Below are positions 4,980 to 12,934 of a stretch of DNA of 64,000 nucleotides, piece after piece (the stretch's first letter is position 1; each line of letters begins with the position of its first letter). Under the pieces are notes generated by a model, which was given only the letters and a program-made list of their open reading frames with translations, ran no database searches and had not been told where the DNA came from. A program made the position numbers and the translations under genes. This stretch comes from an uncultured Erysipelotrichaceae bacterium (lineage in GTDB: Bacteria; Bacillota_I; Bacilli_A; RFN20; CAG-826): assembly GCA_902800905.1 (NCBI GenBank), contig CADCGC010000001.1:62001-126000 (forward strand). Direction: 5' to 3'.

Positions 4980-5912
4980 TTAATTTAAATTTTCTTCGAT
5001 ATAGTCGTTTATGATGCTATTTAAATCATCATAAGTGCTTAGTTCTCCTGAGAGTCTAGCAATGCCTCTAAATACCCTCATTGCAATCGCCTCACCTTTT
5101 TCATCGATGAGGTTTCTTGCTAGTTCTTTACATAAATTAGCTTGTTCAACGAGAGATGTTAATTCAACATCTTTTCCTTCAAAATAGTTGTTTATATTCT
5201 TAATAAGATATGGTTTCCCAACAGCACCACGAGCCGCCATAACAGCATCTGCTCCTGTAATCTTAAGAGCGTTAACTGCATCTTCGACTGTGTTAATATT
5301 CCCACTAACAACTAAGGGGATGCTCATTTTGTTTCTTAAATCTTTAACTAAGTCCCAGTGTGGCTGTCCACCATACATTTCTTTAGTTGTTCTTGGATGA
5401 ATAGCGACCAAACTCGCTCCAGCTTTTGTAACTTCATTAATTACTTCCATAAATGTTAGATGGTTCATATCAAAACCTAATCTAATCTTTACTGTGATTG
5501 GTTTATTTGTTACTTCTTTCATTGCTCTAACAATATCGCCACATAATTTTGGATTCTTCATCAAAGCCGAACCAGCGCCAGTCTTGATAACCTTATTTAC
5601 TGGGCAACCCATATTGACATCAAAAAAGTCGATATTCGGATTAAGAGATTCTGAAATTTGAACTGCCTTTTTCATGTTCTCAGGACTACTTCCAAATAGT
5701 TGAACACATGTAGGAAGTCTACTCTTTTCAAATTTTATGTATGAGAGCGTTTCTTTGTTTCCATATATCAGCCCCATATCAGAAATCATCTCGGTAACTA
5801 CATATCCAGGACCGAATTGAGACATGAATTTTCTATATCCAAAAGAAGTAATTCCTGCCATTGGAGCAAGGACTACTTTATTGTTAATAACAATGTCACC
5901 AATCTTAAACAT
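4980..5912 (-). CDS. dusB: tRNA-dihydrouridine synthase, DusB type
   Basis: This 310-residue FMN-dependent TIM-barrel enzyme reduces uridine to dihydrouridine in tRNA. The N-terminal LAPMAGITSFGYRK segment is diagnostic. The catalytic cysteine is C103 in DVNMGCPVNKVIKTGAGSALM. Later VKIRLGFD and AARGAVGKP complete the FMN-binding barrel. It follows ftsH by 15 nt. The stretch before the ATG is pyrimidine-rich and has no Shine-Dalgarno site, so its translation may depend on ribosomes arriving from ftsH. Confidence 0.95.
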   Translation of the reverse strand: MFKIGDIVINNKVVLAPMAGITSFGYRKFMSQFGPGYVVTEMISDMGLIYGNKETLSYIKFEKSRLPTCVQLFGSSPENMKKAVQISESLNPNIDFFDVNMGCPVNKVIKTGAGSALMKNPKLCGDIVRAMKEVTNKPITVKIRLGFDMNHLTFMEVINEVTKAGASLVAIHPRTTKEMYGGQPHWDLVKDLRNKMSIPLVVSGNINTVEDAVNALKITGADAVMAARGAVGKPYLIKNINNYFEGKDVELTSLVEQANLCKELARNLIDEKGEAIAMRVFRGIARLSGELSTYDDLNSIINDYIEENLN

Positions 5913-5927: not shown

Positions 5928-7997
5928 TTATTTGTCTCCCTTTTCTCCTTCACCATCTTCTGCTGGTTTAGTTTCTTCGGTCACTGATTCTTGAGCGACT
6001 TCATCTTTTTTGAGATGACGATGTTCTAATAAGTAATCGATTTCTTCAGCAGTAATTTGCTCGTGCTCAAGAAGTGTTTGAGCAATAAGCTCAACATCAT
6101 CTTTATACTGTCTAATGATAGATAAAGCTTTTTCATGAGCTTCGTTAATAATCTTTTGAACTTCAGAGTCAATCTTTTCAGCGGTTGCTAAAGAGAAGTT
6201 CTTTTGAGTTGAAGTATAGTCTCTTCCTAAGAAGACACTGCCTGTATCTCTTTCATATTGGATTGGTCCTAAAGATGACATACCAAGTTCAGTGACCATT
6301 AATCTAGCAATTCTTGTTGCCATTTCAATATCGTTTTGAGCACCACTAGAAACATCATCAAAGAAGATTTCTTCTGATGAACGTCCACCTAAATATCCAA
6401 TGATTCTTGCCTCTAATTCTTTCTTAGTAAGTAAGAATCTATCTTCTTCAGGAGTCATACGAACATGTCCGCCTGTATTTCCACGTGGAATAATTGTAAT
6501 TTTTTGGACCTTATCAGAGTGTTCTAACTTGATACCAATAATTGCGTGTCCTGCTTCATGGTGAGCAACAACATCTCTTTCATGTTTATTCAATGAACGT
6601 GAAGATTTTGCAGGTCCTGCAATTCTTCTATCGATAGCTTCGTCTATTTCAGCCATAGAGATAGCGTTCTTTTTTCTTCTAACTGCTAAAATAGCAGCTT
6701 CATTCATAATATTTTCGATATCAGCACCTGAGAAGCCAACAGTTCTCTTAGCAATTTGACTGAAGTCAACATTTGGTTCAAGCTTTTTATTTCTTGAATG
6801 TACTTTGAAGATTGCTTCTCTGCCTTCTTTATCTGGAAGAGAAACAGTAATCTTTCTATCAAAACGACCAGCACGTAATAAAGCTGGATCAAGAACATCG
6901 TCTCTATTGGTTGCGGCCATGACAATAATGCCTGAGTTATCAGAGAATCCATCCATTTCAACTAAAAGTTGGTTAAGGGTTTGTTCTCTTTCATCATTGC
7001 CACCACCTAAACCAGCACCTCTTTGTCTACCTACAGCATCGATTTCATCGATGAATACGAGACATGGAGCGTTTTGTTTAGCGGTTTTGAACATATCTCT
7101 AACTCTGCCAGCACCGACACCAACAAACATTTCGACGAAGTCAGAACCAGAAATAGAGAAGAACGGAACACCAGCTTCTCCAGCAACGGCTTTAGCAAGT
7201 AATGTTTTACCAGTACCTGGAGAGCCAACTAATAGAATACCTTTTGGTAACTTCGCACCAAACTTGGTGTATTTTTGTGGATCCTTGAGATATTCAACAA
7301 TTTCTTCCATCTCAGCTTTTTCTTCATCACATCCAGCAACATCTTTAAATCTAACTTTAGAATCCTGGATTCTTCTAGCACGTGATTTATTGAAATCCAT
7401 AGCTTGTCTATTGGAACTATTAACAGAACCAGCAAGTCTAGAGAACAAGAAGATGACGATGATGCCTGAACCAAGAATCATAATGATTGTTGGTCCCCAT
7501 TGATCCCACCAAGTTGTTTGATAAATATCGCTGATAGATAAAGCATCAGCACTTGTGCTTGTTAATCTTTCGTTAACTAATGTATTAATACTAAAACCGG
7601 TGAAATTGATTGTGTCACCTTTGACATATTCGGCGCCATCAAAATAAATGGTTTTATCAACATCAACAGTAATTGAATAATTAAAACTTGTGTTGTTATA
7701 AGTATAGCTATCGGTATTAAAGGTATAAGAAAATGTTTTTCCGTTCTTATCTTTAAATGAACCGGTGATTGTTGTAAGTTCGCTTCCATAATGGTGTGTC
7801 ACATTAGCGGTTTCAACACGATCATTAACTAATGCTGTGACATAGTCGGTTCTATTTAAGTGAGTGGATCTGTCAATACCACCAAAAATTCTATAAATTA
7901 AAATACCAATTAAACCAGCAGTTAAAAGGATAATAACAATAAATCCAATCGATATACGACGACGAGGAAGATTTGTATTAGAATCATTTTCAGGCAT
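5928..7997 (-). CDS. ftsH: ATP-dependent zinc metalloprotease FtsH
   Basis: This 689-residue membrane AAA+ protease degrades misfolded and regulatory membrane proteins. Two membrane segments (about residues 17-37 and 167-187) flank an extracellular domain. The AAA module has Walker A GSPGTGKT (near 258), Walker B LVFIDEID and the arginine-finger region LLRAGRFDR. The zinc site HEAGH lies near residue 476. The acidic, low-complexity C-terminus is not conserved. The gene has its own promoter and an AGGAGG ribosome site. A small hairpin (8016-8030) sits 18 nt before the ATG. In Bacillus ftsH also lies close to tilS. Confidence 0.97.
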   Translation of the reverse strand: MPENDSNTNLPRRRISIGFIVIILLTAGLIGILIYRIFGGIDRSTHLNRTDYVTALVNDRVETANVTHHYGSELTTITGSFKDKNGKTFSYTFNTDSYTYNNTSFNYSITVDVDKTIYFDGAEYVKGDTINFTGFSINTLVNERLTSTSADALSISDIYQTTWWDQWGPTIIMILGSGIIVIFLFSRLAGSVNSSNRQAMDFNKSRARRIQDSKVRFKDVAGCDEEKAEMEEIVEYLKDPQKYTKFGAKLPKGILLVGSPGTGKTLLAKAVAGEAGVPFFSISGSDFVEMFVGVGAGRVRDMFKTAKQNAPCLVFIDEIDAVGRQRGAGLGGGNDEREQTLNQLLVEMDGFSDNSGIIVMAATNRDDVLDPALLRAGRFDRKITVSLPDKEGREAIFKVHSRNKKLEPNVDFSQIAKRTVGFSGADIENIMNEAAILAVRRKKNAISMAEIDEAIDRRIAGPAKSSRSLNKHERDVVAHHEAGHAIIGIKLEHSDKVQKITIIPRGNTGGHVRMTPEEDRFLLTKKELEARIIGYLGGRSSEEIFFDDVSSGAQNDIEMATRIARLMVTELGMSSLGPIQYERDTGSVFLGRDYTSTQKNFSLATAEKIDSEVQKIINEAHEKALSIIRQYKDDVELIAQTLLEHEQITAEEIDYLLEHRHLKKDEVAQESVTEETKPAEDGEGEKGDK

Positions 7998-8113: not shown

Positions 8114-9238
8114 TTATTTCACATAAAAGTTAGTTTCTTTAGTAGGAACAAAGCTTTTTTGATAGCGAGGAACATATAAAGAATCGCCATTTGCATTAAG
8201 AATAATTGGCCACCTTCTTCTTAATCTTAAAGGCATTTTCCAATCAATAAACAGTCTTCTGACAAGGACTTTGTAGCCATTAATCAAAACATAGTCATCA
8301 ATTTTTGTATTCCTAATTTGAATAGGATAATCAAAAGATTGGACATTACGATTACTACTATCCTTTGTAAAATCTAAATAGAAATAAGGAGTATCTAAAA
8401 GTCCTGGTTTATCAAGAATAAAAGAATATTCAATGAGTGGAAGCTCTTCAGGTACAATATCAACAAAACCATATTCTTTAACAAAAAACAAAAAATGTTT
8501 AATCTTAAAGAAAATGTTTGGTTTTGAACTTTTTAAAGCCTTTAATATCTCACCTACATTTTCTTTCGATAAATATTGATTTTCTCTAACTTCTCTCACT
8601 AAATGATTTAAAGCATATTTGAGTGACAGATCATCTAAAGAAAGAAGATATTTAACAGAGTGAATTTGTCCATAATCAATTGATTTTAAAACGCATTGAA
8701 GTTCAGCATTTTTCTCATCAATTTCTTTAAGGAGATTGTCGCGTTCCTTCTCAGTCAGTTTTGCAATTTGTTCATGTCTAATTTTGTTTCTTAAAATTGA
8801 GGTATCGAAATTAGTTTTATCGACCGCAAATGGGACATTGTTTTTAAGACAGATTCCTTCTAATTCTTTCTTGCTGTAGCTAAGAAGTGGGCGAATAACA
8901 TTCATGCCTTTAATCATCGTTTTTTCTTGAATTCCAAAATAAATCGGGCAGTTTTGCCTTTGTTTTTGAATAATATAAATTTCGCGACATTTTGCTTCGG
9001 TTTTTCCTACCGGATTTTTATCGCATTCTTTAACAAATACTTTCACATTATTTTTGGCTGCGTATTCTAGTAGTCCGTTGACCTCGTTAGTTGACTCAGG
9101 TCTAATATGATAATTAACGATTGCAGCGTCGAATTGATATCCTTGTTTTTTAAGCATGTTAAAAAGAGCCATGGAATCTGGTCCAAACGAACACGCTAAT
9201 AGATATTTCTTGTTTTTATCAAGGTTCAATTCTTTCAT
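8114..9238 (-). CDS. tilS: tRNA(Ile)-lysidine synthetase TilS-like protein lacking a conserved active-site segment
   Basis: TilS adds lysidine to C34 of tRNA-Ile(CAU) so that it reads AUA. The 374-residue protein has the TilS layout: PP-loop near residue 17, VNYHIRPES, EAKCRE (81-86), IRPLLSYSKKELEG (115-128), DKTNFDTSILRNKIRH and a C-terminal domain. Two features are abnormal. The SGGxDS loop reads SFGPDS (17-22). Between CREI (84-87) and YIIQKQRQN, the stretch of about 30 residues that normally carries RYxFF and the AHHxDDxxET motif is absent in frame. AUA codons occur in this window (cca codons 5 and 7), so a working enzyme or an alternative tRNA would be expected. The start lies inside the rqcP coding end (20-nt overlap). 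Confidence 0.82.
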   Translation of the reverse strand: MKELNLDKNKKYLLACSFGPDSMALFNMLKKQGYQFDAAIVNYHIRPESTNEVNGLLEYAAKNNVKVFVKECDKNPVGKTEAKCREIYIIQKQRQNCPIYFGIQEKTMIKGMNVIRPLLSYSKKELEGICLKNNVPFAVDKTNFDTSILRNKIRHEQIAKLTEKERDNLLKEIDEKNAELQCVLKSIDYGQIHSVKYLLSLDDLSLKYALNHLVREVRENQYLSKENVGEILKALKSSKPNIFFKIKHFLFFVKEYGFVDIVPEELPLIEYSFILDKPGLLDTPYFYLDFTKDSSNRNVQSFDYPIQIRNTKIDDYVLINGYKVLVRRLFIDWKMPLRLRRRWPIILNANGDSLYVPRYQKSFVPTKETNFYVK

Positions 9239-9455
9239 AAGATGCTTTTTCTTTTTTACCTACAACTTCTATAACAACTCTAATATCGAATTTCTTTTCT
9301 CCAAAAGTTATATTTATGATATCTCCATCTTTTACATCACTACTTGGTTTAGCTTCTTTTCCATTAATTAAAACCAATCCTCTAAGGCAATATTCCTTAG
9401 CGATAGTTCTTCTTTTGATGATTCTTGCTTCTTTTAAAAACAAATCAATTCTCAT
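9219..9455 (-). CDS. rqcP: S4-domain RNA-binding protein, RqcP (YabO) family
   Basis: This 78-residue protein is almost entirely one S4 RNA-binding fold: MRIDLFLKEARIIKRRTIAKE at the start, then GLVLINGKEAKPSSDVKDGD. Bacillus RqcP binds the 50S subunit with RqcH and supports poly-alanine tailing in ribosome-associated quality control. The neighbourhood supports the call: in Bacillus yabO lies in the same mfd-to-tilS region. The ATG overlaps the mfd TGA stop (ATGA), and the gene ends with TGA followed directly by TAA. Confidence 0.85.
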   Translation of the reverse strand: MRIDLFLKEARIIKRRTIAKEYCLRGLVLINGKEAKPSSDVKDGDIINITFGEKKFDIRVVIEVVGKKEKASYERIEP

Positions 9456-12400
9456 TCTGTTTTCACCACCTTATTGGTTCTAATAACGTTTACCAATGCT
9501 CTTAAAATATTTTCAAAGTCTTGTAACCACGTTTGTTTTTTTGTCATAACTATTTTAAAACGATGATTAACATAACTTATCTTTATTATATTTAAATATG
9601 GAATAAGTGCCTCAAATAAAATGTTGCCAATTCCTCTAATGTTAATAAAATTGTCGCCTAAATTGATTTCCAAGTTATATTTTGTTTCCTTAACTTCTCG
9701 TATATCACATTCTTGAACCATTAAATCGATATTTCTCTTTGTGAATAATTGCTCTACTTCAATTGGTAGTTTTCCATAAATATCTCTAGTTTTAGCTTTG
9801 ATTGCCATTAATGATTCATTTGTGGAAGCTGACATTATTTCTTGATAAAGTTCAATCTTGTCGCTTTGATTTGCGTATTCTTGAGGGATATAGGCATCAA
9901 AGTTAACATCTAGATTAAGATTGTATTGAGGAATCTCTTTATCAACTTCGCCAGATTGTTCTATTACTGCTTCGTTCAACAATTTGATATACATATCTAA
10001 ACCAATGGAGTCAATAAAACCTGCTTGTTCAGGTCCTAAAATATCTCCAGCACCTCTAATCATTAAATCTCTTTGTGCGATACGATATCCACTACCTAAA
10101 GCAGTAAATTCTTGTAGGGTCTTGAGTCTTTTTTGTGCATCTTCCTTTAAAACTTTGTTCCCGTTATACATTAAATAAGCGTACGCAATACGGTTTCCTC
10201 GCCCAACACGTCCTTTGATTTGATATAACTGAGCGAGTCCATAATGATCACTATCATCAACAATAATCATGTTAGCGTTAGGAACATCAATGCCGTTTTC
10301 AATAATCGAAGTACACACTAAAACTTGGACTTCGCCACCATAGAACTTAATCATCACATCTTCGATATCGTTTTTGGTCATTTTGCCATGCGCAACAGCG
10401 ATATTAGCTTCAGGTAATTGCCTCTTAAGTCTATTTGCAATCTCATAAATAGTTTCAATGTTGTTATGAAGATAGAAAACTTGCCCTTCTCTTCCTAATT
10501 CTCTTTGTATTAATTCTTTAACAATATCCGCTCTAAAAGGAGTGACATATGTTTGAATTGGCATTCTTTCTCCAGGAGGAGTGTTGATTTGTGATAAACT
10601 CCTAACTCCTAAAAGAGATATTTGAAGTGTTCTAGGAATAGGTGTCGCGCTTAAAGTTAAAACATCAATGTTATTCTTTAATTCTTTAATCTTTTCTTTC
10701 TGTTCGACTCCGAACCTTTGTTCTTCATCCACCACTAGTAAGCCTAAATCGTTGTAGATGATATCTTTTGATAACAATCTATGAGTTCCAATAATAAGGT
10801 GAATTTTTCCTTCTTGAACGCCTTTAATGTACTCTTTTTGTTTCTTTTCAGTTATGAGTCTAGAAAAAATAGCAATCTTAATATCAAAACCTGCAAATCT
10901 TGCGGTTGCAGTTTCAAAGTGCTGTCTGGCTAATAATGTTGTTGGACATAATAAAGCAACTTGTTTACCAGAATTAATTGCTTTAAATATCGCTCTAAAA
11001 GCAACTTCGGTTTTCCCAAATCCAACATCACCACATAATAAGCGGTCCATTGGATGAGTGCTTTCCATATCTCTTTTTATCTCATCAAGAGATCTTTCTT
11101 GGTCTTTAGTTAGTTCAAATTCACAACTCTCTTCAAACGCTTTTTGGAACTCGTCATCTTTTGAAAATGCGAAACCTTCAATCTTGCTTCTTTCGACATA
11201 TAAATTGAAAAGTCTTTGAGCAAGGTCATGAATTCTCTTTTTAATCTTTTCTTTTTGTTTTTCCCAATCTTTAGTGTGGAGATGAGATAAGCGGGGTCTT
11301 GCGCCTTCTTTACCAATATATTTTCTAATTAACGCTAATTGGTTAAGAGGAACATAAAGAATTTCTCCACCGAAATAAGCAATCTTTAAATAGTCTTGAT
11401 GTTTTCCTTGAACCTCTAAAGTTTGGAGCTCAATAAATTCACCAATGCCTTGATATTCATGAACGACATAATCGCCTGGATTAAGTTCGTCTCCACTTCT
11501 TAATATGGTGGCTTCTTTAAATCTATTATCAAACCTTGTGATTCTAACTTTGTGATTAAATAGTTCCTTACTTGATAAGAAAACGATTTTTTCTTCTTCT
11601 AAAACAAATCCAATAGGTAATGAAGATATTGCTAGACCAATTTGTCTTTTTTCAGGAAGAGAAAATTCACTAACCATTTCAAAAGGAAGATTTTCACTAT
11701 TTAAGAGATCAACAATGTTTTCAAGTTGATCTTTGCTACTTAAAGAAATATTCACTTTGTAGTTTTGATTGGTGTAAGACCTAATAATGTTTATAACATC
11801 AAGTTCCTTACTTACTTCAAAAGGAACATTCTTACAGTTAAACGTAATATCATCTTCGCTTGTTTGAAGTAATGATGTTCTAATTAAGCTACTTCTATTA
11901 AATGGAATTCTTGAATAATTTTGGAATAAAGATAAATGGCTAAGAGCGTGCCCTTGCTCGAATAATTCGGATAAGAATGTAGCGGATTCCTCCATTATCA
12001 TCTGGGCATTTTCTCTAATTCCGTTTTCATCCACTAAGACAACATCATAATCACGGCAATAATCAATCAGAGAACAAGTATGATCACTTAACATAGAAAA
12101 ATATCTATATAAGTTAGGTGAATAGTTATATTCCAAAATATCGGAAATATTAGTTTCGGTGATGTTTCTTAAATTATCAAATTCAAGAGGCGGTAAGTAT
12201 TTTTGATCCTTTTCTAATTGAGACATTAACTTCTCGGTCGCTGACCTACATTCTTCGTCAGTAAATAAGAAGTCGTTAGCAGGAAGAATATCAACTTTTT
12301 TAATTTGCTCTTTGCTGGTTTGAGTGGCTAAATCAAAATATCTAATCGAGTCAATTTCATCTCCAAAAAGTTCAATACGAATCGCATCATCATAGTTGAC

Positions 12401-12934
12401 GGAATAGATGTCTAAGATATCACCTCTAGAGGCGAATTGAAGAGATTGATCAATTTTATTAACTTGATAATACCCTGCTCTAACAAGTGACTTTTTGACC
12501 TCGGTTAAATTGATTTCATCGCCAACGTTAAAAGACAAAGTACAGCCACCAAACACTTCTTTATTTGGCAAATATCGTAAAATTGAAGCGAGATTTGCAA
12601 CAATAATTTCGTTTTTCCCGTTTTTTATCTCATTTAATGTGTAAATTCGATTGGCCGCCATTTCTTTACTCAAAGAAAGATTTTCAGCGCGAATCAACTC
12701 GTCACTCATAAACATTGAGATCTTGACTTTTGGTAGCAAAGTTTTTAAAAACGAGAATACTTTTTGAGCTTTGTATAAGTTTGATGTAATTAACAAGTAT
12801 TTATGTTTATCTTCTAAATAAGCAGAGGCTGTTAATAGAGAAATTCCTGCTAAATCATCCACGACAAAATGCCCACTTCTTGACAAGAAGGGGGGTATCG
12901 CTCTATTAGATTTTAAGTAGTCAAATAGTTTCGT
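9452..12934 (-). CDS. mfd: Transcription-repair coupling factor Mfd, apparent ACG start
   Basis: Mfd displaces RNA polymerase stalled at DNA damage and recruits UvrA. Visible parts, in order, are the UvrB-like N-terminal domains, the RNA polymerase-interacting and CarD-like segment (GDYVVHEYQGIGEF), the helicase P-loop GDVGFGKTEVAFRA, Walker B VVDEEQRFG, SATPIPRTL, the second RecA-like domain (TSIIENGIDVPNAN, GRVGRG) and the C-terminal domain. A TTG at 12884-12886 would give 1144 residues but has no ribosome site and cuts into the conserved N-terminus. The frame stays open 16 codons further up as KLFDYLKSNRAIPPFL, beginning at ACG (12932-12934), 7 nt after a perfect AGGAGG (12942-12947). I therefore place the start at ACG. 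The gene overlaps the rqcP start by 4 nt. Confidence 0.93.
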   Translation of the reverse strand, partial: TKLFDYLKSNRAIPPFLSRSGHFVVDDLAGISLLTASAYLEDKHKYLLITSNLYKAQKVFSFLKTLLPKVKISMFMSDELIRAENLSLSKEMAANRIYTLNEIKNGKNEIIVANLASILRYLPNKEVFGGCTLSFNVGDEINLTEVKKSLVRAGYYQVNKIDQSLQFASRGDILDIYSVNYDDAIRIELFGDEIDSIRYFDLATQTSKEQIKKVDILPANDFLFTDEECRSATEKLMSQLEKDQKYLPPLEFDNLRNITETNISDILEYNYSPNLYRYFSMLSDHTCSLIDYCRDYDVVLVDENGIRENAQMIMEESATFLSELFEQGHALSHLSLFQNYSRIPFNRSSLIRTSLLQTSEDDITFNCKNVPFEVSKELDVINIIRSYTNQNYKVNISLSSKDQLENIVDLLNSENLPFEMVSEFSLPEKRQIGLAISSLPIGFVLEEEKIVFLSSKELFNHKVRITRFDNRFKEATILRSGDELNPGDYVVHEYQGIGEFIELQTLEVQGKHQDYLKIAYFGGEILYVPLNQLALIRKYIGKEGARPRLSHLHTKDWEKQKEKIKKRIHDLAQRLFNLYVERSKIEGFAFSKDDEFQKAFEESCEFELTKDQERSLDEIKRDMESTHPMDRLLCGDVGFGKTEVAFRAIFKAINSGKQVALLCPTTLLARQHFETATARFAGFDIKIAIFSRLITEKKQKEYIKGVQEGKIHLIIGTHRLLSKDIIYNDLGLLVVDEEQRFGVEQKEKIKELKNNIDVLTLSATPIPRTLQISLLGVRSLSQINTPPGERMPIQTYVTPFRADIVKELIQRELGREGQVFYLHNNIETIYEIANRLKRQLPEANIAVAHGKMTKNDIEDVMIKFYGGEVQVLVCTSIIENGIDVPNANMIIVDDSDHYGLAQLYQIKGRVGRGNRIAYAYLMYNGNKVLKEDAQKRLKTLQEFTALGSGYRIAQRDLMIRGAGDILGPEQAGFIDSIGLDMYIKLLNEAVIEQSGEVDKEIPQYNLNLDVNFDAYIPQEYANQSDKIELYQEIMSASTNESLMAIKAKTRDIYGKLPIEVEQLFTKRNIDLMVQECDIREVKETKYNLEINLGDNFINIRGIGNILFEALIPYLNIIKISYVNHRFKIVMTKKQTWLQDFENILRALVNVIRTNKVVKTE

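Follow-up and report, generated by a model that had tools for sequence, protein, structure and literature searches.

Can a bacterium that uses AUA codons do without the AHHxDDxxET part of its lysidine synthetase, or has that part dropped out of one draft assembly? The question is raised by the tilS gene at 8114..9238 on the minus strand of the window, by which we mean the whole 64,000-nucleotide stretch analysed here (contig C1:62001-126000 of the genome that we call G000). G000 is a draft assembly of 1.85 Mb in 64 contigs, with a completeness of 94.32% and a contamination of 4.23%.

The tilS gene and its gap

The gene was assigned as tilS, for tRNA-Ile2 lysidine synthetase, from Pfam, NCBIfam and its relatives. 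It starts with ATG and encodes 374 amino acids in 374 codons with no internal stop. Pfam ATP_bind_3 matches the protein at 94.5 bits, split over two stretches, and the N-domain model TIGR02432 gives it 92.4 bits compared with a cut-off of 93.6; in the genome search, where the frame included neighbours of TilS, the same model reached 96 bits. The C-terminal TilS domain is also present, with TIGR02433 at 28.2 bits against a cut-off of 20.2 and Pfam TilS_C at 16.4, below its cut-off of 22.

Aligned with its nearest relative, that of genome G002 (locus L002, 65% identity), the window protein passes straight from ...AKCREI, which ends at residue 87, to YIIQKQR. Protein and DNA alignments place the gap at 8977..8978 (minus strand), between I87 and Y88, where the DNA of G002 holds 87 bp, encoding 29 residues, that are absent from G000. 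An earlier note on this DNA had described an in-frame loss of about 30 residues between these two motifs with the flanking motifs intact, and both observations hold: the loss is exactly 29 residues, and outside it the window protein retains 35/35 of the columns that are invariant among 28 relatives. The absent residues carry the RYxFF and AHHxDDxxET motifs of the catalytic domain and include 7 columns that are invariant in 28/28 complete relatives.

We also considered the PP-loop (residues 17-22, 9173..9190, minus strand), which the earlier note had read as altered. The sequence SFGPDS is literally there but is nothing unusual for these proteins, as the form S[FY]GPDS occurs in 27/28 relatives (SFGPDS in 17, SYGPDS in 10 and SGGPDS in 1). 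A second set of relatives, biased in this respect since CS[FY]GPDSM was among its two search patterns, has S[FYH]GPDS in 78/79 and SYGTDS in 1/79. Because 27 of the 28 relatives combine S[FY]GPDS with a full segment, the PP-loop change is unrelated to the gap, and as a family-wide form we rejected it as a clue. In its own right, the family form S[FYH]GPDS is a marked departure from the usual SGGxDS.

The segment itself is kept throughout the relatives that could be parsed. The first set comprised the 30 best loci of a protein search, with L027 omitted as it ends at a contig edge; all 28 complete relatives keep the segment, 27 with 29 residues and one with 28. The second set, the best 80 of 193 relatives, includes metagenome-assembled genomes (MAGs) such as RUG14536 (uncultured Erysipelotrichaceae bacterium) and RGIG9216 (Bacilli bacterium, Water_deer_Rumen). 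Apart from L156, which the filter did not parse, all 79 loci again keep the segment, with 29 residues in 78 and 28 in one; this set contained no second strain of the species and may omit genomes very near G000. The two sets are not independent, since they have much in common; the contig of L114, for example, is G002:C1. A survey of the 19 genomes of the genus found the gap only in G000 and a complete segment in 17 of the 18 others, the gene of G012 being cut by a contig end. Homologues sharing the gap, which the earlier note had envisaged, were therefore found in none of the parsed relatives. As a separate observation, two family members, G020 (96% complete; L351) and G025 (84%; L350), gave no TilS match in the protein search, and the alignment search found in them just a PP-loop protein that to the eye resembles TtcA and is fused to an acetyltransferase-like part; tRNA-Ile2(CAU) is still present in G020.

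Relative-rate counts were made for the rest of the gene with four outgroups, the outgroup status of each being assumed. These gave 23-29 changes unique to G000 TilS compared with 33-42 unique to G002, so that no faster decay of tilS was seen in G000. Because the counts are not raised in G000, normal constraint acted on the gene until very recently, or still does.

AlphaFold2 models of the window protein and of an intact relative had mean pLDDT values of 89.4 and 92.6, respectively. Confidence in the window model falls below 50 at residues 79-85, adjoining the junction, and over the blocks 71-80, 81-90 and 91-100 it averages 63, 53 and 72, compared with 73, 89 and 98 in the relative. The helix at 80-99 of the relative is reduced to 80-83 in the window model, the strand at 103-106 is lost, and just part of the helix at 110-123 remains, as 88-94. 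A structure search with the window model still ranks TilS first (3a2k, TMq 0.60). The model, which is no measure of activity, fits a broken catalytic domain.

Gaps and frame breaks elsewhere in the assembly

A second in-frame gap lies 3.9 kb from the first. The dusB-like tRNA-dihydrouridine synthase gene at 4980..5912 (minus strand; assigned by alignment and NCBIfam, from which we take the names DusB and TtcA) lacks 45 bp, or 15 residues, near its C-terminus, with the boundary at ~5057/5058. The 15-residue block is kept in 19/19 other parsed relatives, the motif filter having dropped 10/30 loci. As with tilS, faster decay of dusB in G000 was not seen (11-15 unique changes vs 14-24 for G002), with one of the four outgroups giving 15 for G000 and 14 for G002. 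The neighbouring genes on the same strand show no large gap. The gene between dusB and tilS at 5928..7997, which we take to be ftsH, has no large gap (86% identity to G002, 3 gap positions), and no gap was found in the gene upstream of tilS at 9219..9455, presumably encoding a small S4-like RNA-binding protein (88% to G002), or in that at 9452..12886, presumably mfd (84% to G002).

A third loss lies on another contig and breaks the reading frame. The gene at G000:C10:2348-4976 (L348, L349), which we take to be ppdK, for pyruvate phosphate dikinase, has lost 29 bp out of frame, the difference between aligned stretches of 75 and 104 bases, with flanks ~95% identical to G002. This is the only copy in the G000 assembly. 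Among the other 18 genomes in the genus, 14 have the gene full length in one frame, contig ends cut it in G013 and G004, and G008 (70% complete) and G018 (69% complete) gave no match. Because the ppdK loss breaks the frame, at least one of the losses is not function-preserving.

We then asked how general such losses are. A comparison that took in 992 kb of G000 and 1.08 Mb of G002 gave 402 reciprocal-best protein pairs, 325 of them at an identity of at least 55%. Among these 325 pairs, gaps of at least 5 residues with flanks of at least 45% identity numbered 7 in G000 (29, 15, 12, 7, 6, 5 and 5 residues) and 7 in G002 (32, 12, 10, 7, 6, 5 and 5 residues). Losses of blocks that relatives keep, on the other hand, numbered 3 in G000 (tilS, dusB and ppdK) and 0 in G002, with only some of the gaps polarised. 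At the 12-residue gap of G002, the protein length of G002 is the one usual for these genomes: judged only by the length of the open reading frame, 387-396 residues occur in 15 of the 16 genomes other than G000, which include G002, while the protein has 404 residues in G001, as in G000. The 32-residue gap of G002 is unpolarised and falls in a variable stretch of a protein that is 61% identical.

Scans for frame breaks gave ppdK as the one clear case in G000. They found none when 117 G002 proteins with matches of at least 60% were followed along the contig of the window, and none of the ppdK kind in the 1.08 Mb of G002 compared. Not counted in these scans were, in G000, open reading frames of 90, 101 and 132 codons (BC4_79030, BC3_13480 and BC3_12154), a second partial copy beside BC4_117952 and partial matches at the ends of stretches; in G002, four partial rows and an 84-codon frame over tRNA genes. 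Microhomology at the tilS, dusB and ppdK junctions amounts to a few bases at most and is resolvable only with the undeleted parent. The 3-versus-0 excess is a small number that proves nothing alone, and a broad proneness of the G000 assembly to deletions is only partly supported.

Lysidine demand and tRNA-Ile2

The earlier note had suggested that a second TilS or an alternative tRNA-Ile with a UAU anticodon might cover for the shortened enzyme. Neither was found in the 94%-complete assembly. Three kinds of query, namely the protein, TIGR02432 and an 18-row alignment (the last at E values up to 10), gave no second tilS; the sole other PP-loop match was a protein at C3:21706-22206 that scores best as TtcA (187 bits, below that NCBIfam model's cut-off of 272). 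An alignment search for the absent 29-residue piece found no copy of it elsewhere in the assembly. Similarly, no tRNA-Ile(UAU) was present among 50 RF00005 matches. ARAGORN called 48 distinct tRNAs at these loci, namely 47 of the 50 and one more, and the remaining 3 were read by eye as an Arg-like TCT, a weak Leu-like TAG and tRNA-Ile2(CAU). The tRNA set also holds two distinct initiator-like tRNA-Met genes, at C46:7976-8048 and C7:37710-37783, one of which may come from contamination.

The substrate of TilS is intact. The tRNA-Ile2(CAU) gene lies at G000:C20:16265-16336 (minus strand; L079), and its 72 nucleotides are identical in all 16 genomes of the genus with a match to the search pattern, G000 included. 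Since these genomes include ones with full-length TilS, we rejected the idea that the tRNA has adapted to the short enzyme. AUA codons are in use, as the earlier note had observed: in 31 conserved genes of the window they account for 95 of the 1055 Ile codons, and in 180 conserved genes of G000 for 519 of 5060, compared with 574 of 5117 in G002. AUA sites of G000 stand opposite Ile in G002 in 347/486 cases, and those of G002 opposite Ile in G000 in 382/544. Because tRNA-Ile2 is unchanged and AUA use is like that of the sister genome and aligned with Ile, the need for lysidine persists.

The same tRNA has an unusual T-arm. Its T-loop in G000 is GTCGGGA, without T54 and without A58; a T-T pair stands at 53-61, and the D-loop is short. 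ARAGORN missed it, and Rfam gave it 45.7 bits. All 48 G000 tRNAs called by ARAGORN have T54, with a T-loop that starts with TTC in 47 and TCC in one. Across the order (279 genomes in 56 genera), the pattern with loop GTCRGGA matches 27 genomes that belong to 4 genera. This genus accounts for 16 of them, out of its 19 genomes, and the three other genera for 1, 9 and 1. Ten relatives fetched from outside the four genera have the standard TTCRANT loop. The unusual T-loop is conserved and independent of the tilS gap, and this lineage-specific tRNA-Ile2 with its non-canonical T-loop may merit a study of its own.

Explanations for the gap

We consider it very probable that the gap is either an error of assembly or consensus, or a deletion that arose very recently in one strain and is unfixed, and that the species in nature keeps a complete TilS. 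The locus would then be an ordinary tilS, the only one of an uncultured Bacilli species that presumably lives in the gut or rumen, and 87 bp of it dropped out in a draft, metagenome-type assembly. Besides the rest of the CREI helix, the loss removes the strand that comes next in the PP-loop domain and the beginning of the helix after it, which carries AHHxDDxxET, and as written the 374-residue product most likely cannot make lysidine. According to an excerpt of PMC12514573, neither E. coli nor B. subtilis survives deletion of tilS, TilS is considered essential, and tRNA-Ile2 without lysidine can be charged by MetRS; from this lethality and this mischarging we infer an inactive product and, in the species, a full gene. 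The same excerpt allows that tilS is perhaps dispensable in some species. The earlier note had listed a deletion variant in the population among its explanations. This remains the best reading once it is widened to include assembly error, because two other genes of the draft have clean losses as well, and one of these breaks the frame.

Several observations count against an error or a variant. The frame has no stop, the window's contig showed no frame break, the raw gap counts are equal in the two genomes (7 vs 7), and the lost piece was not found elsewhere in the assembly. Furthermore, the gaps in tilS and dusB are close together, and each is in frame and affects a tRNA-modifying enzyme. Random error would make this slightly surprising, and it is the only observation that leaves room for a real biological cause. 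Taken together, all the readings with a real biological cause are unlikely.

The first of these is a real, fixed deletion, in which TilS function was lost and AUA is decoded otherwise, for instance by a tRNA-Ile(UAU) or a second tilS that was not assembled. At 94.32% completeness a gene could be absent from the assembly, and the coincidence of the two window gaps in tRNA-modifying enzymes would suit a fixed loss. However, none of the 50 tRNA matches has a UAU anticodon, the AUA use of G000 is like that of G002, and the rest of tilS decays no faster than in the sister; tRNA-Ile2(CAU) is unchanged and, to go by the excerpt of PMC12514573, open to charging by MetRS without lysidine. We regard a fixed deletion as improbable.

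A second possibility is an adaptive loss in tRNA modification, which would have struck tilS and dusB together in one strain and could be compared with tilS substitutions in B. cenocepacia. Excerpts of PMC10128029 and PMC12514573 report from evolution experiments with that species that reduced TilS function can raise fitness, and again both window gaps strike tRNA-modifying enzymes. In the excerpt of PMC12514573, however, the four B. cenocepacia mutations discussed map outside the catalytic domain and lower TilS function, whereas here a core segment is gone, and ppdK, which is unrelated to tRNA, was also struck. This makes an adaptive loss quite improbable.

We also think it very improbable that the species lives with a TilS lacking AHHxDD, either through a rebuilt site acting on the odd-T-loop tRNA-Ile2 or because its reading of AUA is changing while dusB shrinks. 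If true, a working TilS without AHHxDD, or an AUA-using bacterium without TilS, would be a true exception to the view of TilS as essential. The redesigned active site that the earlier note had put forward, in a shortened yet working enzyme, finds no support and is a most improbable reading of the sequence: the open frame, the retention of all other invariant residues and the first-ranked TilS match of the model would suit it, but the gap holds the 7 invariant columns, a PP-loop-domain strand and the AHHxDD motif, and occurs in no parsed relative, the alignment columns inspected show no insertion that would compensate for it, and model confidence drops exactly at the junction. The evidence favours a hole in one draft genome instead, a useful warning against reading biology from a single assembly.

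The preferred reading, an error or a recent deletion in one strain, can be set beside known cases. An excerpt of PMC11017572 describes genes that are possible sequencing or assembly artefacts, with which the window tilS shares a sharp, single-site loss in one assembly while relatives are whole; the artefacts in that excerpt are frameshifts and internal stops, whereas 2 of the 3 losses in G000 are in frame. Compared with known TilS (TIGR02432/TIGR02433; structures 3a2k, 1wy5/2e21/2e89 and 1ni5), the window gene has the same N-terminal PP-loop and C-terminal TilS domains, and differs in lacking the 29 residues with RYxFF and AHHxDDxxET and in falling just below the TIGR02432 cut-off. The TilS proteins of the surrounding Bacilli, from MAGs titled Erysipelotrichaceae, Bacilli or Bacillales, have the S[FY]GPDS PP-loop in common with it and, unlike it, a full segment in all parsed members, and the neighbours of the window tilS are those found in G002.
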